Source: Bacteroidales bacterium F22
GTDB taxonomy: Bacteria; Bacteroidota; Bacteroidia; Bacteroidales; Bacteroidaceae
NCBI GenBank assembly: GCA_029541985.1
Contig: CP095414.1
Span: 1,612,001-1,676,000 of the forward strand
DNA length: 64,000 nucleotides
Direction of reading: 5' to 3'
This document shows positions 23,920 through 38,867 of the stretch, one piece after another. Each line of letters opens with the position of its first letter. Positions within the stretch are counted from its first letter, which is position 1. The position numbers and the translations under genes are program-made. Below the pieces are notes generated by a model that was not told the DNA's origin, ran no database searches, and was given only the letters and a program-made list of their open reading frames with translations.

Positions 23920-24957
23920 ATGAAATCACATCCATTCATCTTTCTGACTTTCCTCTGCCTATTGGCCTTGATGGCTTGCAATGGGAAAAGCAAAACAGTG
24001 AGTCCAACACCGCCCATAGACGATATGAGTGGTTTTGCTAAGGGTGCTGATGTGAGTTGGCTGACAGAGATGGAGGCTGATGGCAAAAAGTTCTATACGC
24101 CTCAAGGAAAGGCTATGGACTGTTTGGAATTGCTCCGCAATATGGGAGTCAACGCTATTCGACTACGGGTGTGGGTGAACCCTGAGGATGGATGGAATGG
24201 GAAAGATGATCTACTCGCCAAAGCTTGGAGAGCTAAGAATCTAGGATTTCGATTGATGATTGATTTTCATTTTAGTGACTCGTGGGCAGATCCGGGTAAA
24301 CAGACGATTCCGGTTCAGTGGAAGGGGTTTACCTTGGAGGAGATGAAACAAGCAGTGGCTAATCATACCACAACTGTACTCCAAGCACTCAAGAATCAGG
24401 ATATCCCTGTGGCATGGGTACAAATAGGAAATGAGACGGCCACAGGAATGCTGTGGGAAGTGGGCAGGTATTCGGATAAAGATAAGACAAGTTTCGCACA
24501 ACTGATCAATGCGGGGTATGAGGCCACAAAAGAAGTCTATCCTGAGGCCAAGGTCATCGTTCATGTAGATCAAGGAAATAACCTAAATCGGTTCACTTGG
24601 TTGTTTGATGGATTAAAAGCGAATGGAGCCAAATGGGATGTCATCGGCATGTCACTATATCCTACTGATGATGACAGTTGGACATCGGTTACACAAGATT
24701 GTCTTAACAATATCACCACACTGATGCAACGCTATGGTTGTGAAGTGATAATCTGTGAAGTCGGTATGCCATGGGACTCCCCATATGCTGAAGCTTTTAT
24801 GGACAAGATAGTAACTGGCGCACAAGCGATTGATGGCTGCCTTGGAGTCTTTTACTGGGAGCCTGAATGCTATAATGACTGGAAAGGGTATACCAAAGGG
24901 GCTTTTGACAATAGTGGAAGACCAACGACAACTCTCGATATCTTTAATGAAAAATAA
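23920..24957 (+). CDS. GH53 endo-beta-1,4-galactanase, lipoprotein
   Basis: GH53 enzymes cut beta-1,4-galactan side chains of pectin. The 345-residue protein has a lipoprotein signal with the cysteine at residue 20 (LLALMAC). The catalytic barrel starts with GADVSWLTEMEADGKKFY and contains NAIRLRVWVNP. The acid/base glutamate is Glu172 in VQIGNETATG and the nucleophile is Glu280 in VIICEVGMPW. The lipid anchor places it at the cell envelope, probably the surface. It stands 22 nt after the glpR-like gene without SusCD neighbours, which is unusual for a glycanase of this phylum. Its stop is 16 nt from that of the convergent esterase. Confidence 0.93.
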   Translation: MKSHPFIFLTFLCLLALMACNGKSKTVSPTPPIDDMSGFAKGADVSWLTEMEADGKKFYTPQGKAMDCLELLRNMGVNAIRLRVWVNPEDGWNGKDDLLAKAWRAKNLGFRLMIDFHFSDSWADPGKQTIPVQWKGFTLEEMKQAVANHTTTVLQALKNQDIPVAWVQIGNETATGMLWEVGRYSDKDKTSFAQLINAGYEATKEVYPEAKVIVHVDQGNNLNRFTWLFDGLKANGAKWDVIGMSLYPTDDDSWTSVTQDCLNNITTLMQRYGCEVIICEVGMPWDSPYAEAFMDKIVTGAQAIDGCLGVFYWEPECYNDWKGYTKGAFDNSGRPTTTLDIFNEK

Positions 24958-24973
24958 TCATCTCAAGAAAACA

Positions 24974-26413
24974 TTAGTTCGACCAATGGTCTGTACGAAA
25001 GGGAACAAGTGGTAACCCTCGTTGACTGACCACATTCCCGATTTGCCAATTCTTATAACAATAGCGGACAGCTACCGGTTTGTCTACTTTCGATGAAGAG
25101 ACAATCAACGTGCCTGAATCTTGCGGATTCTCTACATGAGCAGGATAAAAGTGGCGGTCTTCACCTGCTATTTCGAATCCCTTAATATCCTCAAAAGGAC
25201 TTAGGCAATCCCAAGCAGTAAAATGAAGACTAATTTTATCCTTTTCGATGGACATCGAACTGTATTCTGGATAAGTGGTCACGATCCCTTTGACTCCATA
25301 GGTCTGAACGAGTGCCATATAAGCAAATCGGTTTCCTACTGCTTGCTTATTAGATGGGTGAATTTGATTCTTTTCATAAGAATAAACCAAATCATTAGTA
25401 CAGATAATATCTGCGTGGTCAATCTGCTTGGCTACACGATGTTGCATCTCACGAAAGATAGCTGCATCACGATTCTTACCGTAATTCCAAGGGGCCAATT
25501 CGGCGGAATAAAAAGGAAGATTTCCCTGTCCCCATTCTTCACGCCATAAGTGGATCATGGTGGCAAATCGTGATTCATAGGTTTGTTCTGTACCTACGTT
25601 TGATTCTCCTTGATACCAAAGGAAACCTTTAATCGTATAGTTGTGTAGTGGATGAAGCATCCCATTGTACATGACAGTGACACTTTGCCAATTCCACCAA
25701 CCTGCTGGGTTGCGAACCGTACGTTTTTGTAGATCTATGTCTGGATAGGTTTCTACAATCTCACGAGGTAACCAACCTTCGACATAAGAACCACCCCAAG
25801 CAGAGACAATGACACCGATAGGTACATCGAGTACGGTATTCATCATCATCGCATAAGTATAGGCTACAGCAGAGAAATTAGCTGCATGACTTGGTACACT
25901 TGTCAACCATTTTCCTGAAACTTCCTCCAAAGGCTTAATGGATCCCGTCTGTTTGATTTGTGCCATACGGATACCTGGATATTTTCCTGATTCTGCAATT
26001 AATTTATTGCTGTTTTTTATGGGACAATTATGATAGCCATTTAAGGTTATTTCCATATTTGACTGTCCTGAAGCAAACCAGACCTCCCCTAGTAGTACAT
26101 CGTGAAGGATAGTCGTTTCACCTTGCCCATCACTGAAAGAAATTTCATAAGGCGTGTAGCTAGCTTGTATAGTATTTACGGTAAGCAACCAAAATCCATG
26201 AGCGTTGGCGGTAGTGGTATAGGATACATTATTCCATGAAGGAGTGACTGTAACCAAAGCATTAGGTATCGCATGTCCCCATACTTTCACTAGAGTCTGT
26301 TGCTGAAGTACTAAGTGGTCACTTAGTATATCAGGTAAAACGACTTTAGAGTGAATTGGACTTACAAGAAAGAGAGAAAAAATCACAAGGCAAAGATTTC
26401 GAATGTTTTTCAT
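24974..26413 (-). CDS. Sialate O-acetylesterase family protein (SGNH-type)
   Basis: The 479-residue protein has a cleavable signal peptide (NLCLVIFSLFLVSPIHS) and the catalytic motif FASGQSNME with the nucleophile at Ser118. The oxyanion and His-box region appears later (GFLWYQGESN and NQIHPSNK). An N-terminal Ig-like domain (LPDILSDHLVLQQQTLVKVWG) is typical of the family. These enzymes remove acetyl groups from sialic acid or from xylan and other plant polysaccharides. The substrate here is not decided by the sequence. It is convergent with the GH53 gene. Confidence 0.9.
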   Translation of the reverse strand: MKNIRNLCLVIFSLFLVSPIHSKVVLPDILSDHLVLQQQTLVKVWGHAIPNALVTVTPSWNNVSYTTTANAHGFWLLTVNTIQASYTPYEISFSDGQGETTILHDVLLGEVWFASGQSNMEITLNGYHNCPIKNSNKLIAESGKYPGIRMAQIKQTGSIKPLEEVSGKWLTSVPSHAANFSAVAYTYAMMMNTVLDVPIGVIVSAWGGSYVEGWLPREIVETYPDIDLQKRTVRNPAGWWNWQSVTVMYNGMLHPLHNYTIKGFLWYQGESNVGTEQTYESRFATMIHLWREEWGQGNLPFYSAELAPWNYGKNRDAAIFREMQHRVAKQIDHADIICTNDLVYSYEKNQIHPSNKQAVGNRFAYMALVQTYGVKGIVTTYPEYSSMSIEKDKISLHFTAWDCLSPFEDIKGFEIAGEDRHFYPAHVENPQDSGTLIVSSSKVDKPVAVRYCYKNWQIGNVVSQRGLPLVPFRTDHWSN

Positions 26414-26533
26414 TTCTTCATTATTTTTTCCAAGTATAGGAATTTTCTAGATATACAATGCCCAAAGGAGTTAATTATTAGTGAATTTTAACTGTAATCT
26501 ATTTCAAAAAAACTGATTATCACGTAAAAAAAA

Positions 26534-26562
26534 GACCCAAACAGGATAATCCTGTTTGGGTC
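26534..26562 (-). terminator. Rho-independent terminator of the 26590 sulfatase
   Basis: GACCCAAACAGGA pairs with TCCTGTTTGGGTC around TTA, a 13-bp perfect stem, and is followed on the minus strand by CTTTTTTTT. It lies 27 nt after the sulfatase stop. Confidence 0.93.
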
Positions 26563-26589
26563 AACTATATTTAGGGCTATGCTAAGCTC

Positions 26590-28014
26590 TTATTTGCGAA
26601 GTTTAAAGACTGGAGAATCAACATGAGCCTGGTCCATTATGGCCTCTAACTCTTTCACTTTGGCTGGATTTGACTTGAAAAGATCGTTTGTTTCACTTTC
26701 ATCATCTGCGATGTTGTAAAGTTCTTCCCAGACACCTTTCTTACCACCCATACCTAAGCGGATTAATTTCCAATCCCCTTTACGTACAGCTTGCTTGTCT
26801 GTCTTTCCATGAAATTCCCAATATAAATAATCATGTTTCTTCTGACCTGCTTGTCCTTCTAATGTAGGAAGGAAAGAAATACCGTCAATAGAATCAGGAT
26901 AGTTAGCTCCAATCAAATCACCTAAGGTAGGCATCACATCCCAAAAAGCACTAGGTAAATTAGTTGTACTTCCTGCTTTAATAGTACTTGGAGCCCATGC
27001 AATCATTGGTTCGCGAATACCGCCTTCATACAAATCGCGTTTGATGCCTCGATATTGAGCATTGCTATCGAAAAATTTAGGGTCGGCTCCTCCTTCATCG
27101 TGAGGGCCATTGTCACTGGTAAAGATAACTAATGTATTTTCATCTAATCCCAATTCTTTCAATTCTGCCAAGACTTCGCCTACTCCATTGTCCAAACGAG
27201 AAACCATTGCAGCAAATGAAGTGTGAGGACGGTCTGAAGGATAATAGTCAAATGGCTTATTTGGCTTTTTAGCTAATCCTTTTTCATCGAATATAGCTTG
27301 ATATGCTTCATATACAGAATCGTGAGGTAAGTTGATTTCTGCATGAGGAAGCGTATAGGTTAACATCGCAAAGAATGGCTTATCTTTATTGTCTCGTATA
27401 AATTGCAAGGCTTGCTTATGAATCAAATCATGAGAGTAGGTTTTGCGACCTAGGTTTTCATTTTCAGGGAACACCACTTTCTGACCGTTGTGCCATAGGT
27501 GTTCTGGATAATAGTTGTGCGCTTCACGTTGACAATTATAACCATAAGATTCATCGAAGCCCATCTTACTTGGTACAGATGCCGAACCAGGATAGCCTAA
27601 GCCCCATTTTCCGAAAATACCTGTCGTGTAACCTTGTTCTTTGAACATATCTCCTAGAGTAAATGTTCCACCCTCCATAGGATATTGTCCTTCTGGCTTG
27701 ATTTCTTGATTACCTCGAATCTGTGCATGTCCGGTGTGCATTCCTGTCAATAAAGAACAACGAGATGGAGCACTGACTGTACATCCTGCATAGTGTTGAG
27801 TGAATACCATTCCCTCCTTGGCCATGCGGTCAATATTGGGTGTCTTGATGAACTTCTGTCCATTGTAACCGACATCACCATAACCCAAATCATCAGCAAG
27901 AATGTAAATGACATTCATTGGTTTTACCTTGGCGTCTGCCTGTTTCTTTTGAGTACAACTCGCAAGAGTAGTCACTGCTACTCCAGAGAGACATAATACA
28001 TTTGATAACTTCAT
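26590..28014 (-). CDS. Serine-type sulfatase, lipoprotein (arylsulfatase-like)
   Basis: The 474 residues have a lipoprotein signal with the cysteine at residue 20 (TTLASC). The metal-binding aspartates are in YILADDLGYGD. The maturation motif is SAPSR at residues 81-85, followed by SLLTG, so the catalytic residue is formed from Ser81. The HTGHAQIRGN sequence after the motif is common in arylsulfatase-like Bacteroidota members. Other parts, GKWGLG and FTSDNGPHDEGG, are intact. It is the only gene of its unit, with a strong promoter upstream and a strong terminator after it. The substrate is unknown. Confidence 0.93.
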   Translation of the reverse strand: MKLSNVLCLSGVAVTTLASCTQKKQADAKVKPMNVIYILADDLGYGDVGYNGQKFIKTPNIDRMAKEGMVFTQHYAGCTVSAPSRCSLLTGMHTGHAQIRGNQEIKPEGQYPMEGGTFTLGDMFKEQGYTTGIFGKWGLGYPGSASVPSKMGFDESYGYNCQREAHNYYPEHLWHNGQKVVFPENENLGRKTYSHDLIHKQALQFIRDNKDKPFFAMLTYTLPHAEINLPHDSVYEAYQAIFDEKGLAKKPNKPFDYYPSDRPHTSFAAMVSRLDNGVGEVLAELKELGLDENTLVIFTSDNGPHDEGGADPKFFDSNAQYRGIKRDLYEGGIREPMIAWAPSTIKAGSTTNLPSAFWDVMPTLGDLIGANYPDSIDGISFLPTLEGQAGQKKHDYLYWEFHGKTDKQAVRKGDWKLIRLGMGGKKGVWEELYNIADDESETNDLFKSNPAKVKELEAIMDQAHVDSPVFKLRK

Positions 28015-28192
28015 TATTTTTAATATTTAGAGTTTAAATAGCTTTTCATGGTATCGAAAAGCCCAGTTATGTAGAGTGCATAATGATTAGTTTCGCTTGA
28101 AAACAAAAAGAAAAGAGGACTAGATTTGCCCCCTCTAATAGTAGATTGTGTGAATATTTCATAGCAATGTGCATTTAAAGTTCTGACACACA

Positions 28193-28222
28193 CAAAGGTA
28201 GTAAAAAAAAAGATTACACAAA
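28193..28222 (-). promoter_or_regulatory. Promoter of the 26590 sulfatase
   Basis: On the minus strand TTTG (28222-28219), an 18-nt spacer and TACCTTTG (28200-28193) match the Bacteroidota consensus in full. Transcription would start near 28186, giving a leader of about 170 nt. Confidence 0.75.
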
Positions 28223-28258
28223 CAGAGCGAATCATATTTGTGTAATCTAATTGAGTAA

Positions 28259-28317
28259 TTAAATAACGAAGTATCGAAATGGATCAGCTTGATTTATCTG
28301 ATACTATCGTTATTTAA
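28259..28317 (-). terminator. Stem-loop after the large surface lipoprotein
   Basis: TTAAATAACGAAGTATC pairs with GATACTATCGTTATTTAA apart from one bulged A. It lies 20 nt after the stop of the 970-residue gene. No clear T-run follows, so termination is likely but not certain. Confidence 0.65.
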
Positions 28318-28336
28318 CTAAGAGACAGTATTCTAA

Positions 28337-31249
28337 TTATTGACCATTATCAACAATGAAATCTAATTTAGCTACCTTGGTGAAACCAAATACATCAGTC
28401 ACTGTCATTACAAGATTCAATGTGTAATCCTCAGGATTTACAGCATATGAACCACCTTGAGGTTTAGCATGTATTGTAAATAATACTGGGTTAACAATTT
28501 CACTAACTGGGACGTCATTGATATCTAACAATTCAACAAGACCAACATTACTGCTACCAGCAGTAGCATTTGGATCTTCAACTGTAAACTTAACTGAAGC
28601 AATACGCCAGTCTTTATCTGTTGCAGCAACATAAGCGGCTCTAGTAGCAGGAGTATTACCCACAAAATACATGTTCTCAGAAGAAACAGAAGGATCTATA
28701 GCAACGATATCATCGTGTGAAATAGTCATCATTCCATCAGCAGTATAAGTGAACTTATTGTCATAACCAGATTTCCATGCTGGAGAAGATTCTTTTACAG
28801 GACTAAGTACCTTGTAATCAAAATTGTCAACTACAGCCCATACAAAACCGGCAAAAGGACTAAACATTGATTTTGCTGGATAAACACCATCATTGTGTTG
28901 TGCAATATCTGAAGGATCATTTACAGTAAAGATACTACCATTGGTTGCATCAAATGCATCAAATGCTTCAGGAGTTTCAGTAGACATAAACTTAACATCA
29001 TCCAAGCTACCATTGTAAGAAGAATTTACATCGTAAATTGCATGTTGGCTATCGTCTGAAAGCTGAGCCCAAACATTATTTACATTAAGAGCACTATTCC
29101 ATGTATTTGTTACCTTAGAAATAGCATCAGTAAATAATGATGATAAAGGAGCATTAATATCTGCATAAACCTTAACTACATTAATGATATTACCTAATGC
29201 ATTGTAGAAAGTAAGGGTTGAACCATATCTTCCTTCTTCAGTTATTACAGTCGCATCAAATACAAGTTTGACTGTTGAAAGAGCAGATGTAGAAGGACTA
29301 TAATTATATGTCATTGCCATTGCTGGGTCTGCTACTAACGAAGCAAAAGTATTATCAGCATATACAGCATGAACATGACCTACGAAAGGAGATACATTAT
29401 CTTCAGTAGTGATAGGAGCTACATGGATAGTAGCAACTTCATCTAACCATGCATCTACATCAGGGATGTTTGCTTGTAAATCAGCTAGAACTGTTGAGCT
29501 TGTAGCTACTTGTTCGTCTGCAGGTAAACTAAAGTCAATAGTAGAATTCAATACTAATTGAGTTTCGTCATACTCTAATTTAGTAAAGACAACATCAAAT
29601 GATGCCTCACCACGTGATCCATCCATATACAAGTAATGATAAACAAATGTAACTGTTTTATTAGCTAAAGATGGGTCTGATGTAGAAAGAGTAATGTCCG
29701 TATCACCATCGACAACCATGTCAACACCGTCAATGTCACCATTACTAGCTGAAGTAGGAGAAACAGTAACATATTTTTTCCATATACTAACTCCATTGTT
29801 GAGTGAAGGAACTACTTTTTCTTGAGCAGAAGGAGTCGCTCCCGCATCGTAGATAGCAACTGGAGAATCACATGTTGCAACAAGGTTTGTCTCTACAGCT
29901 ACATCTTCACGTAACAATATGATATCATTCTTTGAATAAATCTCACGATTATCAGTCGAATTAAGATCAGTAACTGTTAGTATGTATGAAGTATATGCAC
30001 CATCATATCTTGTTGCATCTACCCAATCTGATGATACTGAAGGAGAATCGAAACTTACTCCTGTTTGAAGAACTGGAGCTGCAGAAGAAGCACGAGTAAG
30101 CACACGAGTAGTACCCTCTGGCATAGAGAAACTTATGTTATCAACTACATCACCTTTAGAATTCTTTAAGCTCAATTCTAAACCACTCCAATCAACAGTA
30201 GAAGGATTGGCAATAAAGAAAATGGTATCATTAACGAAACGAGCATTAAAATCACCAACTTTTGGTAATTCAATCTCACCCGCAGGACCAAAAGCATCAT
30301 CATTGACTACTTCGGCTCCAGTGTAACTAAGTTGATATGAATCTGATGGATAATAAGAAAAGGCCTTTGCCCAATAAGATTGAGGCGCCAATGTTATGTT
30401 ATTCAACAAAGTTCTGAAAGCAGTAGTTAAATTGATTCCTAAATTACTGATTTCACTACTGATATCAGTTCTTGTTGTTCCCCAATTAGTTAAGAACTCT
30501 TGCATCGCAGTCAAGTCTTCATTGCTAACACCGTCCAATACATCCTCAAGTGTTTCCACTTTAACTAGAATGGCATCAATTTTTTCGTTGATTGATACGA
30601 TATCACCATCAAGACCATCAAGTCTAGTATTAACTAGTTCTTTATAAGTCTCTAGTGCTAGTGTTTGTGCCTCAATAAGAGATTTGTTAGCTGCAATGTC
30701 TGTTATATTTGCATCAACTTTAACTTCAAGAGAAGAAACTCTGTTAGTTAAAGCAGTAAGTGCAGATTCTAAGCTGCTAATAGCAGTAGAATTATCACTA
30801 ACGAGTCCTTGTAGAGTTGTTAATTGACCAGTAATCTCAGCAAATTGAGTATCGATTTCAGCCAATTTTTCATTGATAGTAGAAATATCATCAGCGTTAG
30901 CAGAGATAAGCTCTGTTAGTTCTGTTTTTAAAGCATCTATGGATGCATTCACGACTACTAATTGAGCAGCATCAGCAATGTTAGCAGCTGCAATAGCAGC
31001 CTCTTGAGCAGTAGCTATTTGATCTTTTAAATCATCAACATCCGAAAATGTTGGTAAAGCATCCTGAGCTGTTTGCAAAGCACTCTGAGCTGACTCTAAA
31101 GCAGTTAAGCGGGTTTCCATCGCCGTTTTGTTCTCAGCAATCTGCTCCGTCAATGCGGTATCATCGTAGTCGTCGCCACAAGACACCAATGCGGTACTGA
31201 TGCTTAGAAAAGCACCAAATAAAGCAACACTTAATAATTTTTTTTTCAT
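28337..31249 (-). CDS. Large coiled-coil surface lipoprotein, S-layer-like
   Basis: The 970-residue protein has a lipoprotein signal with the cysteine at residue 24 (ALVSC), followed by GDDYDD. That acidic run matches the surface-export signal reported for Bacteroidota lipoproteins. Residues of about 30-270 form a long heptad-rich coiled coil of repeating Ala/Leu/Glu/Thr (LESAQSALQTAQDAL, ALTNRVSSLEVKV). The rest is beta-rich, Asp/Ser/Thr/Val-dominated and probably a string of Ig-like modules, ending NLVMTVTDVFGFTKVAKLDF. The layout is that of large S-layer or stalk proteins in the order, but no specific family is certain. A LytTR regulator lies upstream on the same strand. Expression level and assembly cannot be read from sequence. 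Confidence 0.75.
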   Translation of the reverse strand: MKKKLLSVALFGAFLSISTALVSCGDDYDDTALTEQIAENKTAMETRLTALESAQSALQTAQDALPTFSDVDDLKDQIATAQEAAIAAANIADAAQLVVVNASIDALKTELTELISANADDISTINEKLAEIDTQFAEITGQLTTLQGLVSDNSTAISSLESALTALTNRVSSLEVKVDANITDIAANKSLIEAQTLALETYKELVNTRLDGLDGDIVSINEKIDAILVKVETLEDVLDGVSNEDLTAMQEFLTNWGTTRTDISSEISNLGINLTTAFRTLLNNITLAPQSYWAKAFSYYPSDSYQLSYTGAEVVNDDAFGPAGEIELPKVGDFNARFVNDTIFFIANPSTVDWSGLELSLKNSKGDVVDNISFSMPEGTTRVLTRASSAAPVLQTGVSFDSPSVSSDWVDATRYDGAYTSYILTVTDLNSTDNREIYSKNDIILLREDVAVETNLVATCDSPVAIYDAGATPSAQEKVVPSLNNGVSIWKKYVTVSPTSASNGDIDGVDMVVDGDTDITLSTSDPSLANKTVTFVYHYLYMDGSRGEASFDVVFTKLEYDETQLVLNSTIDFSLPADEQVATSSTVLADLQANIPDVDAWLDEVATIHVAPITTEDNVSPFVGHVHAVYADNTFASLVADPAMAMTYNYSPSTSALSTVKLVFDATVITEEGRYGSTLTFYNALGNIINVVKVYADINAPLSSLFTDAISKVTNTWNSALNVNNVWAQLSDDSQHAIYDVNSSYNGSLDDVKFMSTETPEAFDAFDATNGSIFTVNDPSDIAQHNDGVYPAKSMFSPFAGFVWAVVDNFDYKVLSPVKESSPAWKSGYDNKFTYTADGMMTISHDDIVAIDPSVSSENMYFVGNTPATRAAYVAATDKDWRIASVKFTVEDPNATAGSSNVGLVELLDINDVPVSEIVNPVLFTIHAKPQGGSYAVNPEDYTLNLVMTVTDVFGFTKVAKLDFIVDNGQ

Positions 31250-31582
31250 ACGTGTAATTTGTTAATTAAAGATTTAAAATAATGATTATATATAGTTCTT
31301 TATCATCAATATAACCTAAATTGCATTGATTTTCAAAAAACCAATAGTGATATTGGCACAAAAGTACATATAACTACAATATTTTTGTGCTTTTTTATCC
31401 CAAACCCGTTATTTATCCACCGAATAACACAATAAAATACAAAAAATCACCTCTAAAAATCAAGAGGACTCCTTTTTCTATCGAAATCCATAATAAAGAG
31501 GTAATACAAGTTATAATACTCAATCAACCTTAAATTATGGACCCTTTAATTACAAATATAACAAAATTCCACAGAAAAAAAA
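31250..31582. other. Leader and promoter interval of the large lipoprotein
   Basis: The minus strand has a -7 box TACTTTTG at 31366-31359 about 110 nt upstream of the start codon. CCAATA/TATTGG (31341-31356) forms a short palindrome just downstream of it, at the likely start of transcription. The -33 element is not evident. No gene is seen. Confidence 0.55.
31450..31467 (-). terminator. Terminator of the LytTR gene
   Basis: CCTCT (31450-31454) pairs with AGAGG (31463-31467). On the minus strand the stem is followed by GTGATTTTTT, the pattern of a simple intrinsic terminator. It separates the LytTR transcript from the lipoprotein promoter. Confidence 0.55.
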
Positions 31583-32128
31583 TTAAATTGCGGTCTTTTT
31601 TCTTTCTTTTACTCGTTTTCTAGACCCAATAATATTTAATTGAGAGAAAACCTGCTCTCTATAAGTATTGCCTATATCTAATAATTTACCATTACTAAGC
31701 TTAACCATGTTCCCCATTATCTCCTTGACGTAGTTAATATTAACCACATTAGATCGGTTTATTCTATAAAAAGAATTAATATCTAAAAGCTCATGGACTT
31801 CACGCATGGGCATGCTGACATCAAAAACAGTCTTGTCATGCAGAACAATATCACAGTAATTTCTCGCTGCTTCTAGATACATAATATGATTAGAATCAAT
31901 CTTAACTAGCTTATTACCGTGTTTAATGAAAAAGAAATCGTCCTTTTCATTAAATTTATTGCAGAGCCGTTGAATCAAATTATTTACCTTTTCTGAATTA
32001 GGCCTATCTGAGATAGGCCTATCAGAAACGGCATCTTTATCGTACGATACTTTAGTAGAGATATCATTAGATACAAGAGATACATTAATTATTACATTCT
32101 TTTCATTCAAATCTGTCATCGTTTTCAT
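31583..32128 (-). CDS. Stand-alone LytTR DNA-binding regulator
   Basis: The 181 residues have a C-terminal LytTR domain at about 75-170 (KIDSNHIMYLEAARNYCDIVL, then SFYRINRSNVVNINYVKEI). The N-terminal 70 residues show no receiver domain and no transmembrane helix. This makes it an orphan regulator with no partner kinase in the window. A 15-nt tandem duplication encodes SDRPISDRP in the N-terminal part. The start at 32128 is the third of three ATGAAA starts in a row (32149, 32138, 32128); the first two open mini-ORFs. It is transcribed toward the 970-residue lipoprotein but has its own terminator, so regulation of that gene is only a guess. Confidence 0.88.
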   Translation of the reverse strand: MKTMTDLNEKNVIINVSLVSNDISTKVSYDKDAVSDRPISDRPNSEKVNNLIQRLCNKFNEKDDFFFIKHGNKLVKIDSNHIMYLEAARNYCDIVLHDKTVFDVSMPMREVHELLDINSFYRINRSNVVNINYVKEIMGNMVKLSNGKLLDIGNTYREQVFSQLNIIGSRKRVKERKKTAI

Positions 32129-32206
32129 AGCTTTTCATGGTTTTTTCATAGTAGTTGTAACACTAATTAATTTAAATGGTAAACATAGATAATGAGACAA
32201 GAAACA

Positions 32207-33298
32207 CTAACTCATAATTTCCATATTCATGGCTTTGCGTACCTCACTGAGGGTTTCGATAGCTACTGCTCTTGCTTCATCTATACCTTTGCGCAACATT
32301 GAGGCAACGAATCCTCTGTCTTTTTCGAGTTCTGAACGACGTTGTCTAATGTCATGGAAATAACTGTTAAGAGCATCTGCAGTCACTTGCTTCAATCGAC
32401 CTGCACCATGGTCACCGATTTCTTCTGCAATACTTTCTGGTGATTGACCTGTACATAGACTAGCCAAACGTAATAGGTTGGCTACCTCAGGACGATTGAT
32501 AGGGTCATAAGAAATATGGCGCTCTGAATCAGTCTTTGCAGATTTGATTAACTTACTTGTCTCATCTGCCGTAGATTTGATCATCACGGTATTGTTTCTA
32601 CTTTTACTCATCTTCTGAGAACCATCTAATCCCAAAATCATAGGTACCTCACTCAACAAACCGACGGGCATCCGGAATACATTAGTCTTGAATTTCTTAT
32701 TGAAACGCTTAGCTATTGTTCGTGTCATCTCAATATGAGGCAATTGGTCTTTACCTACTGGCACTATATCACTTTTGCTAAATAAAATATCTGCAGCCTG
32801 ATGTACTGGATAAGTATACATACCTGCATTGATGATATTTTGACCTGAAGCTGTAATCTCTTCTTTGATAGTTGGATTTCTACTTAGCTCTGCATTGGAT
32901 ACCATAGACAGAAATGGAATAGTCAACTGATTAAGCTCAGGAATATGGCTATGTGGGAAGATGTGTGTGTTGTGCTTCATTGGGTCTAACCCACATGCTA
33001 GATAGTCAATTGCCAATTCGGATACGTATTTAGAAATATCCTTATATACATCTCTATCTGTAAGTACTTGGTAATCTGCTATCAGTACAAAGGTCTCTAC
33101 TCCTAGGTTCTGCAAACGAACTCTGTTCTGAAGAGAACCAAAGTAATGACCTATGTGTAAATTACCTGTAGGTCTATCCCCTGTCAATACTCTATGCTTG
33201 TGAGGATTTACTTTTATGTCATTCTCGAGAGCTGCACTTCTTTGTGCGGCGACATCAAAAGAAGAGTAGTTTAGCTCTCCTGAATCGTTATTTACCAT
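32207..33298 (-). CDS. trpS: Tryptophanyl-tRNA synthetase
   Basis: This class I synthetase charges tRNA-Trp. The 363 residues contain the HIGH motif at 48-51 (TGNLHIGHY) and the KMSKS motif at 229-233 (DGSQKMSKS), with LIADYQVLTDRD between them. It has about 35 more N-terminal residues than most bacterial TrpS proteins. No ATG or GTG start exists close to the HIGH motif, so the extension appears real. It has LytTR downstream (78 nt) and a long non-coding stretch upstream. Confidence 0.95.
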   Translation of the reverse strand: MVNNDSGELNYSSFDVAAQRSAALENDIKVNPHKHRVLTGDRPTGNLHIGHYFGSLQNRVRLQNLGVETFVLIADYQVLTDRDVYKDISKYVSELAIDYLACGLDPMKHNTHIFPHSHIPELNQLTIPFLSMVSNAELSRNPTIKEEITASGQNIINAGMYTYPVHQAADILFSKSDIVPVGKDQLPHIEMTRTIAKRFNKKFKTNVFRMPVGLLSEVPMILGLDGSQKMSKSRNNTVMIKSTADETSKLIKSAKTDSERHISYDPINRPEVANLLRLASLCTGQSPESIAEEIGDHGAGRLKQVTADALNSYFHDIRQRRSELEKDRGFVASMLRKGIDEARAVAIETLSEVRKAMNMEIMS

Positions 33299-33688
33299 TA
33301 TATATATTTTTTGATTGTTAGATATCCTTTAGTTTAAATTCAGGCTAAAGATACAAAAACTAGCGGTTTCTATCTCGTACTATTACATAATTTTGCGTAT
33401 TGTTAGAAAATTTAGTAGGTAGTAAATTTACAAGAAAAGAAGAGAATCCCATTAATAGATGTGTTATTTGATTATATAATATTAAATAGTGTGCTTTTTT
33501 TAGGTGTTTTCGATATAAAAAAATTTCATTTATCTTATTGTCTATTTTATGATAAGCATAAAAATAAATAGGTATAGGTAAAACACCTTATTTAATAATA
33601 GCTTGACCTCAAAATAACCCCTAGAGCCTTATTGTATGTTGTACACATTACATTAAGCTATTCTTTAAAAGCTATTTTTATATTATTG
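33299..33688. other. AT-rich interval between trpS and the xyl regulator
   Basis: The roughly 390 bases upstream of the xyl palindromes are AT-rich and hold no gene. A 60-codon frame from 33632 runs through the operator and promoter and is not believable. The trpS promoter should lie near 33320-33360, but I see no full consensus there. Confidence 0.5.
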
Positions 33689-33701
33689 GCTGATTATCAG
33701 C
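33689..33701. promoter_or_regulatory. Candidate xyl operator 1
   Basis: GCTGAT-T-ATCAGC is a perfect palindrome with 6-bp arms, lying 33 nt upstream of the -33 box of the xyl regulator. It is a good site for a dimeric repressor. Confidence 0.5.
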
Positions 33702-33706
33702 TATTT

Positions 33707-33720
33707 ATGATAGTTATCAT
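33707..33720. promoter_or_regulatory. Candidate xyl operator 2
   Basis: ATGATA-GT-TATCAT is a perfect palindrome with 6-bp arms, 14 nt upstream of the -33 element. It is centred about 18.5 bp from the first palindrome and shares GAT/ATC half-site elements with it. Confidence 0.5.
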
Positions 33721-33734
33721 TCATAGAAAACGAT

Positions 33735-33765
33735 TTTGTATTTCCATTTATTTGACCTATATTTG
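33735..33765 (+). promoter_or_regulatory. Promoter of the xyl operon
   Basis: TTTG (33735-33738), a 19-nt spacer and TATATTTG (33758-33765) match the Bacteroidota promoter in full. The start of transcription would be near 33772 and the leader about 40 nt. Confidence 0.8.
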
Positions 33766-33810
33766 TCCATTATCTAATAAAAAGGACCTAGTTAAACTTA
33801 AACAAAACGA

Positions 33811-34539
33811 ATGAACATGCAAGGCACTCCTCAACCCGCTTTGGCCATCAATCACATTTCAGTTGATTGTGTTGTTTTCTGCATAGAGAACGATGAACTT
33901 TATGTATTGCTAGTAAAACGCGATACTAATGAACTGCATGACATGAAACTTCCTGGAGGAATGGTCTATAAAGAGGAAATACTCGATGTAGCTGCGCAAC
34001 GTATCTTAAAAGATCTTACGGGAGCCAGTGTAGATTCATTACGACAATTTCGCTCTTATAGTGCAAAAGGACGAACCAATGATCCTCGCGATACGCATTG
34101 GCTATCTCACACCTTAAATACGGATATTGATAGTATTCTCACAGTAGCTTATTTCTCTGTCGTAAATACCAAACGAACTATCAACAAGGAATCTTCAGGT
34201 ATATGGGTTCCTCTTAAATCGATCGGTGAACTGGCCTTTGACCATAACCGTATCTTGCAAGATGGGTTTAACCATCTACAGCGTATAGCGACGGTAGAAC
34301 CGTCTATTCTTTTCGAATTTCTTCCTCGTAAATTTGTCATATCTCAATTACGTGCTGTGTACAGTTTGATTTATGACAAGGAATTTGACGTTCGCAATTT
34401 TCATAAACAAGTGAACCAAATGGCTTGGGTAAAACCTCTCGAAGAACGGCAAAAGAATGTATCACATCGAGCTGCTCGTTATTACAAATTTGACAAGGTC
34501 GCGTACAAACGGTTTTTTAAATTTGTCGCCAATTGGTAA
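33811..34539 (+). CDS. Nudix-type transcriptional regulator of xylose use
   Basis: The 242-residue protein has an N-terminal Nudix domain and a C-terminal winged helix (FLPRKFVISQLRAVYSLIYDK onward), the layout of the NrtR/AraR group of sugar regulators known in Bacteroides. In the Nudix box (from Gly50) the catalytic REUxEE is replaced: Arg64 is kept, but the glutamates are Ile65, Asp68 and Leu69. Hydrolase activity is therefore unlikely and the domain probably senses a sugar or sugar phosphate. It is the first gene of a regulator-xylB-xylA-xylE unit, 48 nt before xylB. Starts at 33811 and 33817 are both possible. Confidence 0.9.
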   Translation: MNMQGTPQPALAINHISVDCVVFCIENDELYVLLVKRDTNELHDMKLPGGMVYKEEILDVAAQRILKDLTGASVDSLRQFRSYSAKGRTNDPRDTHWLSHTLNTDIDSILTVAYFSVVNTKRTINKESSGIWVPLKSIGELAFDHNRILQDGFNHLQRIATVEPSILFEFLPRKFVISQLRAVYSLIYDKEFDVRNFHKQVNQMAWVKPLEERQKNVSHRAARYYKFDKVAYKRFFKFVANW

Positions 34540-34587
34540 TGTATGGTAATTAATCAACACAAAATAAACAACTAAGAATAACGGATT

Positions 34588-36090
34588 ATGATTTTACTCG
34601 GATATGATATTGGTAGTTCATCAGTCAAAGCAAGTTTAGTAGATAGCCAGACTGGTACTACACTTGCTAGCGCATTTTATCCACCTCAAGAGGCACCTAT
34701 TATGTCTTCTAAGCCTGGTTGGGCGGAGCAAGACCCTGATATGTGGTGGAATTACCTTTCTGAAGCGACCAAATCGGTCCTTCAGCAGACTGAAAGAAGC
34801 ATAGATAGGCAAGCCATTGGAGCGATTGGTATCTCTTATCAAATGCATGGTCTTGTCTGTGTAGATAAGAATCAAAACGTCCTTCGTCCTTCTATTATAT
34901 GGTGTGACTCGAGAGCCATCCCTTATGGTGAAAAGGCATCTGAGACATTGGGGTATGACTTTTGTATGCAGCATCTACTAAATACCCCGGGCAATTTTAC
35001 AGCAGCCAAATTAGCATGGGTCAAAGAGAATGAACCTGAGATATATAGCCAGATAGATAAGATTATGCTTCCCGGCGATTATATAGCGATGAGACTAACA
35101 GGGGAAATTACGACTACGGCTTCAGGACTTTCTGAAGGGATGTTTTGGGATTTCACTACGAATCAACCTTGCTCTGAATTGCTACAGTTCTATGGTTTTG
35201 ATGCATCGCTTCTTCCTGAAATCAAAGAGACATTTAGTGATCAAGGTCATGTGATGGGGTCTGTAGCAGAAAAGCTAGGTATCCCTGCAGGAATTCCAGT
35301 GAGTTATCGTGCTGGAGATCAACCAAACAATGCACTCAGTTTGGGTGTAGTACACCCTGGACAAGTGGCTGCTACAGCAGGTACTTCGGGAGTCGTATAT
35401 GGTGTAAATGGAGTGGTCAAAGCAGATGCAATGAATCGAGTAAACAATTTTGCTCATGTCAATCATAGTGCACAAGACCCTCGATTAGGCGTGCTGCTAT
35501 GCATCAATGGTACCGGTATTCAAAATGCATGGGCTAAACGAAACCTCGTACCGCCTACAATGGGATATGCTGAAATGAATGATTTAGGTACACAATCTCC
35601 TATAGGGGCTGAAGGAATCAGTGTATTACCTTTTGGTAATGGGGCTGAACGTATGCTTCAAAACAAAGAAATTGGGGCTTGCATCGATGGCATACAATTT
35701 AATCATCACAACCAATCTCATCTCGTTCGAGCTGTACAAGAAGGAATCGTATTTGCGCTTGCGTATGGTATCGATGTGATGAAGGGTATCGGTATGGAGG
35801 TCTCAAGAATCCATGCGGGACAAGCTAATATGTTTCTCTCTCCTATCTTCCGAGAGACTTTGTCGGGAGTGACAGGGGCTACTATTGATTTGTTTGATAC
35901 GGATGGATCTGTCGGAGCTGCCCGTGGCGCAGGTCTCGGTATCGGTGTCTATAAGAATTTCGAAGATGCTTTCGAGACCTTGAAGGTCTTGAAAACAATC
36001 TCACCTATAGAAGCAAATCGAGCAGCATACCACGAGGCCTATAGCCGTTGGAAAGAACTTCTTGAAGCTAAGTTACGAGCTAATAACTAA
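34588..36090 (+). CDS. xylB: Xylulokinase
   Basis: XylB phosphorylates D-xylulose to xylulose-5-phosphate, which enters the pentose phosphate pathway. It is a 500-residue FGGY kinase with N-terminal LLGYDIGSSSVKASLVD, the GWAEQDPDMWW stretch, IGISYQMHGLVCVDK (the QMHG motif is typical of xylulokinases), and the C-terminal region with SRIHAGQANMFLSPIF. The xylA gene follows after 46 nt. The set with xylA and xylE leaves little doubt about the sugar. Confidence 0.95.
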   Translation: MILLGYDIGSSSVKASLVDSQTGTTLASAFYPPQEAPIMSSKPGWAEQDPDMWWNYLSEATKSVLQQTERSIDRQAIGAIGISYQMHGLVCVDKNQNVLRPSIIWCDSRAIPYGEKASETLGYDFCMQHLLNTPGNFTAAKLAWVKENEPEIYSQIDKIMLPGDYIAMRLTGEITTTASGLSEGMFWDFTTNQPCSELLQFYGFDASLLPEIKETFSDQGHVMGSVAEKLGIPAGIPVSYRAGDQPNNALSLGVVHPGQVAATAGTSGVVYGVNGVVKADAMNRVNNFAHVNHSAQDPRLGVLLCINGTGIQNAWAKRNLVPPTMGYAEMNDLGTQSPIGAEGISVLPFGNGAERMLQNKEIGACIDGIQFNHHNQSHLVRAVQEGIVFALAYGIDVMKGIGMEVSRIHAGQANMFLSPIFRETLSGVTGATIDLFDTDGSVGAARGAGLGIGVYKNFEDAFETLKVLKTISPIEANRAAYHEAYSRWKELLEAKLRANN

Positions 36091-36136
36091 TCAACAAACG
36101 GACAACAAATTATTAACTATATAAAAACATTTTATT

Positions 36137-37450
36137 ATGACTAAGACTTATTTTCCAAACATTAGTAAAATTCCTTTTGAAGGTAAAGAGAGTAGGAATC
36201 CTATGGCATTTCGTTACTATGATGCTGATAAAGTAATCATGGGTAAGAAGATGAAGGATTGGCTTCGTTTCGCTATGGCTTGGTGGCATACTTTGGGTGC
36301 TGAGGGTAATGACCAATTTGGTAGTACTACTAAAGCTTTCCCTTGGAATCAAAGCAACGACGTATTGACTGCTGCTAAAGAAAAGATGGATGCTGGTTTC
36401 GAAATCATGCAAAAGATAGGTATCGAATTCTTCTGCTTCCATGATGAGGACCTTATCGAACCAAGTGATGACGTAGCTGAATATGAAGCTAATCTAAAGG
36501 CTATCGTCGCTTATGCTAAAGAAAAAATGGACCAAACAGGGATCAAACTTCTTTGGGGTACTGCAAATGTATTTAGCAACAAACGCTATATGAATGGTGC
36601 TGCAACCAATCCTAACTTTGATGTAGTGGCTCGTGCTGCTGTTCAAATCAAAAATGCAATTGATGCAACGATCGCTCTTGGTGGACAAAACTATGTGTTT
36701 TGGGGAGGTCGTGAAGGCTATATGACATTGCTCAATACTGACCAAAAGAGAGAGAAAGAACATCTCGCTCAAATGTTGCGTATGGCTAGAGATTATGCTC
36801 GTGGTAAAGGTTTCAAAGGAACTTTCCTCATCGAACCAAAACCTATGGAACCTACAAAACATCAGTATGATGTAGATACTGAAACTGTAATCGGCTTCTT
36901 AAAAGCTCATGGCTTAGAGAAAGATTTCAAAGTAAACATCGAGGTAAATCATGCTACACTTGCAGGACATACTTTCGAACACGAATTGGCTGTTGCAGTA
37001 GATAATGGCATGCTCGGTTCTATCGATGCTAACCGTGGTGATTATCAAAACGGATGGGATACAGACCAATTCCCAGTGGATAATTATGAATTGACTCAAG
37101 CAATGATGCAAATCATTCGTAATGGTGGCCTTGGTAACGGTGGTAGTAACTTTGATGCTCGTACTCGTCGTGATTCGACCAACATGGAAGATATCTTTAT
37201 CGCACATATCTGCGCTATGGATGTGATGGCTCGTGCACTTGAATCAGCTGCTGCTTTACTTGAAGAATCTCCTATCCCAGCTATGGTCAAAGAACGTTAT
37301 GCTTCGTTTGATGAGGGTAAAGGTGCTGAATTTGAAGCAGGAAAGATGACTCTTGAAGAACTTTACAAATTAGGTAAAGATAATGAGGCTCCTAAACAGA
37401 TTTCTGGCCAACAAGAACTTTATGAGGCTATTTTGAACATGTATTGCTAA
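36137..37450 (+). CDS. xylA: Xylose isomerase
   Basis: XylA converts D-xylose to D-xylulose using divalent metal. The 437-residue length is that of the class II enzymes. Visible motifs are [11 protein letters not shown] with the catalytic His-Asp pair, [33 protein letters not shown], the metal-binding [16 protein letters not shown], and [15 protein letters not shown] with GSIDANRGD. It lies 46 nt after xylB and 10 nt before xylE. Confidence 0.98.
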
Positions 37451-37460
37451 CAGATATAAT

Positions 37461-38867
37461 ATGATGAAAAACACTAATCAACAAGGAGATATGAGCTACC
37501 TATACATCATCACGGGAGTGGCGATTATAGGTGGACTACTCTTTGGATACGATACTGCAGTCATTTCTGGTGCCGAAAAAGGCTTACAAGGATTTTTTCA
37601 AGGGGCTACTGATTTCGAGTATACTTCTGGTATGCACGGCATCACCGCTTCTTCAGCCTTAATCGGCTGTGTGCTAGGAGGCTCGCTCTCGGGTATCTTT
37701 GCTAATGGCTTGGGGCGAAGGAATTCGCTCCGCTTAGCTGCCTTACTCTTTTTTCTGTCAGCATTGGGTTCCTACAATCCTGAGTTCCTATTCTTCAAAC
37801 ATGGAGTCCCTTCTTTTTCCCTCCTCATGATGTTTGATTTTTACCGTGTAATTGGCGGTATAGGCGTGGGATTGGCTTCGGCAATCTGTCCGATGTATAT
37901 AGCAGAATTAGCTCCAGCAAATATGCGTGGACGATTGGTTTCATGTAACCAATTTGCTATCATCTTCGGTATGCTTGTTGTGTACTTTATCAACTATCAG
38001 ATTCGTGAATCACTAGTAGATATGTCTGGTATGGTTACTGTCGGCTGGCGTCGTATGTTTCTTTCAGAGGCATTTCCCGCTGGATTGTTTGGGTTGCTAT
38101 TATTTCTAGTCCCTAAGACGCCTCGTTACCTTGTCCTCACTGGACAGGTAGACAAAGCGAAGACAATTTTGGACCGAATCAATGGCATAGAGACAGCGAA
38201 ACAGATATTGATAGACATTAAGGGAACGATTCATCAAAAGAGTGAACCTTTGTTGACTTATGGAGTACCTGTCGTAGTGATTGGTATCTTATTATCATTC
38301 TTTCAACAGGCTGTAGGTATCAATGTCGTGCTCTATTATGCTCCTCGTATCTTTGAAAATATGGGAGCTACTGGAGACGTATCTATGATACAAACGGTCG
38401 TGATGGGTGTAGTAAATATCATCTTTACGCTAGTCGCTATATTCACTGTAGATAAATGGGGACGTAAACCATTGCTTATAGTGGGTTCGATAGGTATGAT
38501 GACAGGTATGATAGCTCTTGCTTGTCTATCGTTCATGGATTCTATAGGCATCATGGCGCTTGTCTTCATCATCATCTATTCTGCAAGTTTTATGATGAGT
38601 TGGGGACCTGTCTGCTGGGTTTTAATCTCGGAGATCTTCCCAAATACAATTCGAGGAAAAGCAGTGGCTATTGCTGTTGCAGCTCAATGGATTGCAAACT
38701 TCTTGGTTTCAAGTACATTCCCTGCACTCAGTGAGTGGAATATCGGTTGTACTTACTTGATCTATGCAGCCTTTGCGCTATTGTCTGCGCTATTCGTACT
38801 CAAGTTTGTTCCTGAGACAAAAGGAAAAACACTGGAAGATATGTCTTCCTTGTGGAAGAAAAAGTAA
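37461..38867 (+). CDS. xylE: Xylose:H+ symporter (MFS sugar porter)
   Basis: The 468-residue protein has the twelve hydrophobic helices of a major facilitator sugar porter. N-terminal GGLLFGYDTAVISGAEKGL, the mid-protein VPKTPRYL, FFQQAVGINVVLYYAPRIF, and C-terminal FVPETKGKTLEDM are sugar-porter signatures. Its place 10 nt after xylA supports xylose as the substrate and co-transcription. The transcript ends at the hairpin near 38901-38934. Confidence 0.93.
   Translation: MMKNTNQQGDMSYLYIITGVAIIGGLLFGYDTAVISGAEKGLQGFFQGATDFEYTSGMHGITASSALIGCVLGGSLSGIFANGLGRRNSLRLAALLFFLSALGSYNPEFLFFKHGVPSFSLLMMFDFYRVIGGIGVGLASAICPMYIAELAPANMRGRLVSCNQFAIIFGMLVVYFINYQIRESLVDMSGMVTVGWRRMFLSEAFPAGLFGLLLFLVPKTPRYLVLTGQVDKAKTILDRINGIETAKQILIDIKGTIHQKSEPLLTYGVPVVVIGILLSFFQQAVGINVVLYYAPRIFENMGATGDVSMIQTVVMGVVNIIFTLVAIFTVDKWGRKPLLIVGSIGMMTGMIALACLSFMDSIGIMALVFIIIYSASFMMSWGPVCWVLISEIFPNTIRGKAVAIAVAAQWIANFLVSSTFPALSEWNIGCTYLIYAAFALLSALFVLKFVPETKGKTLEDMSSLWKKK

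Follow-up and report, generated by a model that had tools for sequence, protein, structure and literature searches.

The window analyzed here is a stretch of 64,000 nucleotides of contig CP095414.1 from Bacteroidales bacterium F22. On its minus strand lies a gene for a very probable surface lipoprotein, P0001, preceded by the gene of a stand-alone LytTR-domain regulator, P0002. P0001 is encoded by a single open frame of 970 codons, and the two genes are separated by 333 nt (31250–31582) that hold the predicted promoter. In window coordinates, the features of the locus are the following.

31583–32128, minus strand: P0002, stand-alone LytTR-domain regulator gene, 181 aa (PF04397, E 6e-13).
31450–31467, minus strand: weak hairpin resembling a terminator, downstream of the LytTR gene (fold z −1.2).
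31359–31366, minus strand: −7-type promoter box of the lipoprotein gene, TACTTTTG, an exact match to TANNTTTG.
31356–31390, no strand assigned: inverted repeat with a central interruption, GCACAAAAGTA / TATTTTTGTGC, which overlaps the promoter (11-nt arms, 91% complementary, 13 nt apart).
31341–31356, minus strand: palindrome CCAATATCACTATTGG, located where transcription is predicted to start (hairpin of −5.9 kcal/mol, z −3.0).
28337–31249, minus strand: coding sequence of P0001, a predicted 970-aa surface lipoprotein (open reading frame (ORF) call and match to a 12-relative profile that leaves P0001 out).
31160–31249, minus strand: signal peptide with its lipobox (LVSC, Cys24), followed by the acidic export signal GDDYDD (sequence).
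30482–31162, minus strand: predicted helical coiled-coil stalk, residues about 30–256 (periodicity, AlphaFold2 (AF2) helices, layout of the relatives).
30044–30400, minus strand: conserved core domain, residues 284–402, with the motif NPxxxD...LxNS...TRA (alignment A3).
28340–28648, minus strand: C-terminal beta module with a conserved DxxG motif (TDVFG), residues 868–970 (alignment A4).
28202–28248, minus strand: intrinsic terminator of the lipoprotein gene (12-nt perfect arms, T tail, fold z −5.8).

The N-terminus of P0001 reads MKKKLLSVALFGAFLSISTALVSC followed by GDDYDD, which comprises a hydrophobic signal, the lipobox Cys24, and Asp residues at +3, +4, +6, and +7. The protein therefore combines the signal peptide, the lipobox Cys, and the polar or acidic residues at +2 to +6 by which lipoprotein export signal (LES) membership is defined. 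For B. fragilis, PMC5080379 gives the surface-export signal as SDDDD, with Asp mostly at +3/+4. The computed mass of the mature protein is 102 kDa. Residues 34–255 contain 2.7% Pro plus Gly and display a hydrophobic period of 3.54, with a power of 73 that lies above the shuffled mean (33, standard deviation 14) and below the largest of 500 shuffles (90); most 28-residue windows in this region are enriched at heptad positions a and d. A single-sequence AF2 model of the whole protein placed helices at residues 30–256 and strands after them, and the last 103 residues were predicted as mainly strands with a predicted local distance difference test score (pLDDT) of 62. Thus, a first-pass annotation made from the letters alone, which had described a lipoprotein of 970 residues with an acidic export signal, a coiled coil, and a beta-rich body, agrees with our data on each of these parts, the body resting on a poor model. 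The repeated modules it had envisaged in the body were not recovered, as self-comparison gave no off-diagonal match. As a side observation, P0001 contains two D[ST]x sequons, which we take to be of the O-glycosylation type, compared with 8.4 ± 2.7 in shuffled sequences, so that they are seemingly avoided.

Plain searches with the P0001 body found none of 80 relatives and only two marginal matches in 398 genomes, in one of which, L045, a long coil is followed by the motif NPxTVDxxGLxLSxxNS, as in P0001. Reading P0001 as an orphan was nevertheless rejected, since profile searches revealed a family of Bacteroidales surface lipoproteins. Alignments A1 and A3 include P0001; the independent test is a profile of 12 relatives from which it was excluded. 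This profile matched the whole of P0001 with an E-value of 2.2e-50, and with 2.4e-20 when the coil was omitted (residues 260–970), the individual matches covering residues 1–448 (independent E-value 1.4e-41) and 504–968 (1.1e-12). A three-row profile located the family in 9 of 100 relatives, and a 12-row core profile in 113 of 398 genomes of the same taxonomic family besides the host's own, spread over 14 of 30 genera with its own included. In an order-wide draw, the core domain appeared in 4 of 294 genomes besides its own. The genomes drawn included no other member of the host's genus. The first-pass annotation had also pointed to possible paralogs, yet both the whole-protein search and the A3 core profile (E 7.7e-19, alignment A3 including P0001) returned only P0001 itself from its own genome, where the gene is present in one copy.

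All 12 aligned members are lipoproteins with the Cys and acidic signal, and the C-terminal Asp and Gly (D952 and G955 in P0001) are invariant in the 12 (alignment A2). Among 59 ORFs, the distance from the Cys to the core ranges from 105 to 587 residues and is filled either by coil, with a few percent Pro plus Gly, or by DUF4988 or collagen-like sequence, with up to about 20%. PF16378 (DUF4988) did not match P0001 above the gathering score, whereas proteins of three other loci (L044, L003, and L005) do match. The core domain itself matched no Pfam model at E 0.001 in the 12 members and has no relative in the PDB. Sequence and profile searches of the PDB were equally unrevealing for the other parts; with the C-terminal alignment A4, the top matches reached E 0.1 and were PKD-like domains from collagenases and from a bacillolysin. 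A scan of the collection with the A3 profile yielded nothing useful. The near full-length homology to a large family of the same layout, together with the export signal, makes a surface stalk a well-supported prediction; P0001 is very probably a surface lipoprotein of the core-domain family, and its layout probably that of a stalk plus a head.

The place of P0001 within the family is less easily read. BLAST ranked L126 first and L123 second, with matches to residues 1–414, while in phmmer with bias correction the top ranks went to L152, L127, and L158, and L126 came fourth; the composition of the coil affects the BLAST order. In a tree of the bodies, P0001 lies beside L065 and L112 without support, on a very long branch (1.99, the median of the end branches being 0.6), and this placement calls for caution owing to the long branch and deviating composition. 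P0001 thus appears to be a very divergent member of a fast-evolving, widespread family of predicted Bacteroidales surface lipoproteins. A literature search found no paper on the core-domain family or on its link to LytTR, most subscription papers being outside the reach of that search.

To describe the surroundings of the family genes, 101 loci were read; after L109, L111, L131, and L177 were dropped for want of a called core ORF, 101 family ORFs in 97 loci remained. The loci were hand-picked from hit lists, plus one plasmid record, and are not a random sample, genus g14 being heavily represented; 15 of the 101 ORFs have no upstream ORF in the stretch read. Members were split by the presence of an OmpA gene within two genes downstream. 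Directly upstream of the 35 OmpA-paired ORFs that have an upstream ORF, there were two recombinase genes and no AraC or LytTR gene. The 63 ORFs without OmpA include 51 with an upstream ORF, and here the direct neighbor was an AraC gene in 18 cases, a tyrosine recombinase gene in seven, and a LytTR-type gene in three (the window included). The 18 AraC genes are of the HTH_18 type, confirmed by Pfam in three examples, lie on the same strand as the family gene, and account for all but four of the 22 AraC ORFs found across the loci. Family genes are thus repeatedly paired with a local switch, be it AraC, a tyrosine recombinase, or a LytTR-type regulator, and the LytTR gene of the window, whose host is a gut-type bacterium, occupies the usual switch position of the relatives.

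Nine g14 loci (L101, L103, L104, L105, L115, L134, L145, L146, and L147) displayed several family paralogs per genome, whose first 30 residues (MNKKFLSAILFGALMVSSTGTFVSCKDYDDDID) are almost identical while their bodies diverge, each preceded by a small AraC-type gene of its own, in most cases at 38–76 nt. This arrangement suggests diversification behind a constant leader.

The intergenic stretch upstream of the lipoprotein gene contains one perfect −7-type box (TACTTTTG, 31366–31359), matching the consensus TANNTTTG, and no TTG at the usual −33 spacing from it. The 16-nt palindrome CCAATANNNNTATTGG (31341–31356), which the first-pass annotation had noted at the predicted start of transcription, is real and is the sole hairpin of its kind in 31250–31582; it is weak evidence, because 9.8% of 500 shuffled versions of that stretch also produce a hairpin with 6-bp arms that each carry two or more G/C. 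The interrupted inverted repeat at 31356–31390 (hairpin z −2.2) is a possible operator. Downstream, the terminator at 28248–28202 is strong, none of 200 shuffles folding as well, and a further stable hairpin (28265–28312, minus strand, z −4.3) was observed between the lipoprotein stop codon and the terminator. The LytTR gene had been credited with a terminator of its own, but the hairpin at 31467–31450 folds no better than shuffled sequence (28 of 200 shuffles fold as well), so that transcription may read through from the LytTR gene into the lipoprotein gene. The earlier description of a single-gene unit therefore holds at its downstream end and is likely overall, with this qualification upstream.

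P0002 matches PF04397 with 49.3 bits (cut-off 22.6), and no receiver domain was found in it. It is one of five LytTR genes in the 2.9-Mb genome, and with so few such genes a chance adjacency to the lipoprotein gene would be rare. Nonetheless, it is quite conceivable that the LytTR gene is unrelated to the lipoprotein, and is instead the last gene in a trpS unit or a regulator acting elsewhere: trpS (a tRNA synthetase, by sequence) lies 78 nt upstream on the same strand, a LytTR-type site was not recognized in the intergenic region, no LytTR gene was seen beside 98 of 100 relatives (subject to the ORFs without a readable upstream neighbor), and the core domain was absent within about 1.5 kb of 29 other LytTR loci of relatives and of the four other LytTR loci of the own genome. 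Against such an accident stand the repeated pairing of family genes with an upstream regulator and the neighborhoods of two further members, L123 and L126. In these two, a receiver protein (PF00072) with a LytTR-like C-terminus is encoded directly upstream of the family gene, at gaps of 336 and 333 nt compared with 337 nt in the window on the same measure, and a tetratricopeptide repeat (TPR)/PF06580 kinase and a second receiver plus LytTR-like regulator are encoded downstream, which looks like a self-contained two-component surface-protein locus. Our home-made LytTR model missed both neighbors at a threshold of 1e-6; they were revealed by looser scoring, by a receiver–LytTR profile (home-made model, E 7.5e-6 to 1.4e-3), and by Pfam, the next best match at looser scoring (0.045) being an OmpA gene and hence noise. 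Among the 100 other family ORFs, only these two have LytTR-type neighbors.

The first-pass annotation had raised the regulatory link from position only. Relatives beside a LytTR-type gene do occur, but this pair belongs to another lineage: the approximately unbiased (AU) test rejects a joint clade of L123, L126, and the window gene (p 0.0015), and therefore the LytTR pairing either arose twice independently or the tree is misled. The two pairings consequently lend the link indirect support, and control of the lipoprotein gene by P0002 is a reading we hold tentatively. Elsewhere in the order, other stand-alone LytTR genes (L016 and L022, genomes G045 and G040) adjoin a repeated set of small proteins that start with MAIDT.PSQVAT.ALQAIPFGSIIGGPLKA.

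The proposal of an S-layer subunit led us to the phase-variable BT1927/BT1926 system of Bacteroides thetaiotaomicron, described in PMC12548429, PMC12578637, and PMC12118408 as lattice-forming and protective against phage and complement. A BT1927 primer from PMC12548429 had exact matches in two genomes out of 158 in one genus and in none of 61 of another. The partner primer has two mismatches, and the locus is therefore an ortholog or near-copy of BT1927, not necessarily that of the type strain. Its gene order is recombinase, core-domain family member (872 aa), OmpA, recombinase, BT1927-like protein (940 aa), and OmpA-like barrel. In genome G477 (L150:4566-9752 and L100:2218-7274), two cassettes of recombinase, surface lipoprotein, and beta-barrel were observed side by side, one with a core-domain member and the other BT1927-like, with inverted repeats of one type. 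The promoter repeat of the S-layer operons is given in PMC12118408 as 19 bp, CCGTTACCTABVRAGTAAC. Pairs of it, about 280 bp apart and with zero to one mismatches, precede the family gene in L125, L135, L150, and L151, and the repeat is likewise found before the BT1927-like gene, with one mismatch. A different pair was seen in L065, a coil-type member with no recombinase observed beside it. Here CATCTCTTAATAAGAGATACAGA forms an exact inverted repeat of 23 nt, at −296 and −97 upstream of 4361 and 199 bp apart, which differs from the S-layer repeat and may be another invertible promoter. The window has no such 23-nt pair.

It is very improbable that P0001 belongs to the BT1927-type S-layer family proper. 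The sizes are alike (102 and about 100 kDa), both are of the surface lipoprotein type with a long helical part, and relatives of P0001 share the promoter-repeat type and locus. However, homology was rejected, the best blastp match to the BT1927-like protein having an E-value of 1.1 and the core profile scoring 0.8 bits; the BT1927-like protein appears helical along its length while P0001 is predicted to be beta after residue 256, and the partner barrel types differ (PF16961 versus PF00691). What stands of the S-layer proposal is the role: a coat is plausible for P0001 because genes of its family occur in a tandem arrangement with a BT1927-like gene and share its inverted-repeat promoter type.

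The competing function is that of an adhesin or glycan-binding lipoprotein, in which the coil would be a spacer and the beta head would bind a host or dietary ligand without forming a coat. Downstream of P0001 lie a sulfatase gene and then a SASA esterase gene, which places it outside the OmpA-paired branch, and the region 23920–38867 holds, besides these two, genes for GH53, an NrtR/AraR-type NUDIX regulator, an FGGY kinase, a xylose-isomerase-like protein, and a sugar transporter, related to glycans and pentoses. The abundance of glycan genes (a sulfatase next door, the SASA esterase, GH53, and xylose-type genes), the fast divergence of the family head seen in the end branches, as for ligand-binding heads, and the DUF4988 and collagen-like N-termini of several relatives would suit an adhesin. 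This reading is nonetheless rather unlikely, as no carbohydrate-binding or adhesin domain of Pfam or NCBIfam exceeded its cut-off in P0001, the gene is a single-cistron unit parted from the sulfatase gene by the strong terminator, and relatives often adjoin OmpA, AraC, or recombinase genes. A preference for an S-layer-like or shielding coat over an adhesin is, for its part, a cautious one.

With modest confidence, we favor the interpretation that P0001 is an outer-leaflet lipoprotein of a Bacteroidales stalk-and-head family without its own Pfam model, and that it is locally switched. Several observations weigh against this. The AF2 model of P0001 is too poor to establish a fold (mean pLDDT 35, predicted TM-score 0.26), and Foldseek gave no significant match for the modeled C-terminal module. 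No invertible promoter is present in the window, where the longest exact inverted repeat is 9 nt and shuffles reach 12; no S-layer-type repeat occurs in it with up to three mismatches, and no recombinase is found among the genes flanking P0001. No OmpA partner lies beside the P0001 gene, unlike 38 of 101 family ORFs, and 23 of the 51 non-OmpA members have none of the sought regulator types directly upstream. The LytTR-type neighbors beyond the window come from a single ortholog pair (L123 and L126, 76% identical) and were assigned by weak scores, one reaching 21.1 bits where Pfam asks for 22.6, with an hhalign probability of 37 and E 3.6e-4 over 101 columns. Finally, the LytTR-type 9-mer, for which a consensus was assumed, has no exact match in 31250–31582 (0.47 expected) and no spaced pair, although this is a weak test.

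According to the favored interpretation, P0001 would be exported through Sec and signal peptidase II, lipidated at Cys24, and flipped to the cell surface under the direction of GDDYDD. The coiled coil of about 220 residues, probably oligomeric and some 20–30 nm long if continuous, would raise the head off the membrane. The head, comprising the core domain and beta modules that end in the DxxG strand, is placed by homology and its fold is predicted; it may serve lateral contacts in a coat or ligand binding. Expression of the one-cistron gene would be set by a local switch, for which the neighboring P0002 is the candidate, probably an activator because the promoter lacks a recognizable −33 box; in the relatives, the switch would be a neighboring regulator gene of the AraC or the LytTR type, or else a tyrosine recombinase together with a promoter of the invertible type.

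A wider proposal, which we regard as improbable, is that the family supplies interchangeable cell coats rewired repeatedly to whichever switch lies upstream, namely AraC, DNA inversion, or, at least twice independently, a LytTR-type regulator, the P0001 coat having moved from stochastic inversion to signal-responsive LytTR control. If so, the choice of coat in this organism would be regulated instead of phase-variable, and P0001 may exemplify a surface protein whose expression has changed from a stochastic to a regulated mode. In gut Bacteroidales, it is the surface coat that determines how sensitive a cell is to phage and complement, as reported for BT1927 (PMC12548429, PMC12578637, and PMC12118408), and the core-domain family offers candidate coat genes in other genomes. 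This family lacks a Pfam domain model and is associated with three or more kinds of local regulator and, in Bacteroides, with the BT1927 type of locus and promoter; of most interest for further work is the way its members exchange their upstream regulators.

Compared with known systems, P0001 resembles BT1927/BT1926 as a surface lipoprotein of about 100 kDa, and its relatives share the inverted-repeat promoter type and locus, but there is no sequence homology, and the published lattice is that of BT1927. The DUF4988 (PF16378) lipoproteins, including the N-terminus of the BT3328-type hyaluronic acid lyase, have a CGDDYDDT or CKDYDDD export signal followed by the start of a coil, as in P0001, which lacks both the DUF4988 match and a lyase domain. 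The Bacteroides members of the family (L150:5915-8530, L125, and L135) share the signal, the CKDYDDD export signal, the core domain, and the C-terminal DxxG module. Where P0001 has a coiled coil, L125 and L135 have DUF4988 or collagen-like N-terminal parts with 19% Pro plus Gly, and L150 has collagen-like repeats and an OmpA gene downstream that P0001 is without; all three have a recombinase upstream with inverted-repeat pairs, in contrast to the LytTR gene and absence of such repeats at P0001. The annotated "cell surface protein" WP_181757497.1 of plasmid pCACC737_3 (Bacteroides sp. CACC 737) is 28% identical over P0001 residues 1–364, a coil followed by the core, and differs in having a site-specific integrase directly upstream and no LytTR gene annotated nearby. 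Closest in arrangement are the L126 and L123 genes (genomes G222 and G208), which are coil-type like P0001 and have a receiver plus LytTR-like gene directly upstream at a nearly equal distance, but whose regulators are of the two-component type with the TPR/PF06580 kinase downstream, and which fall into another clade of the body tree.

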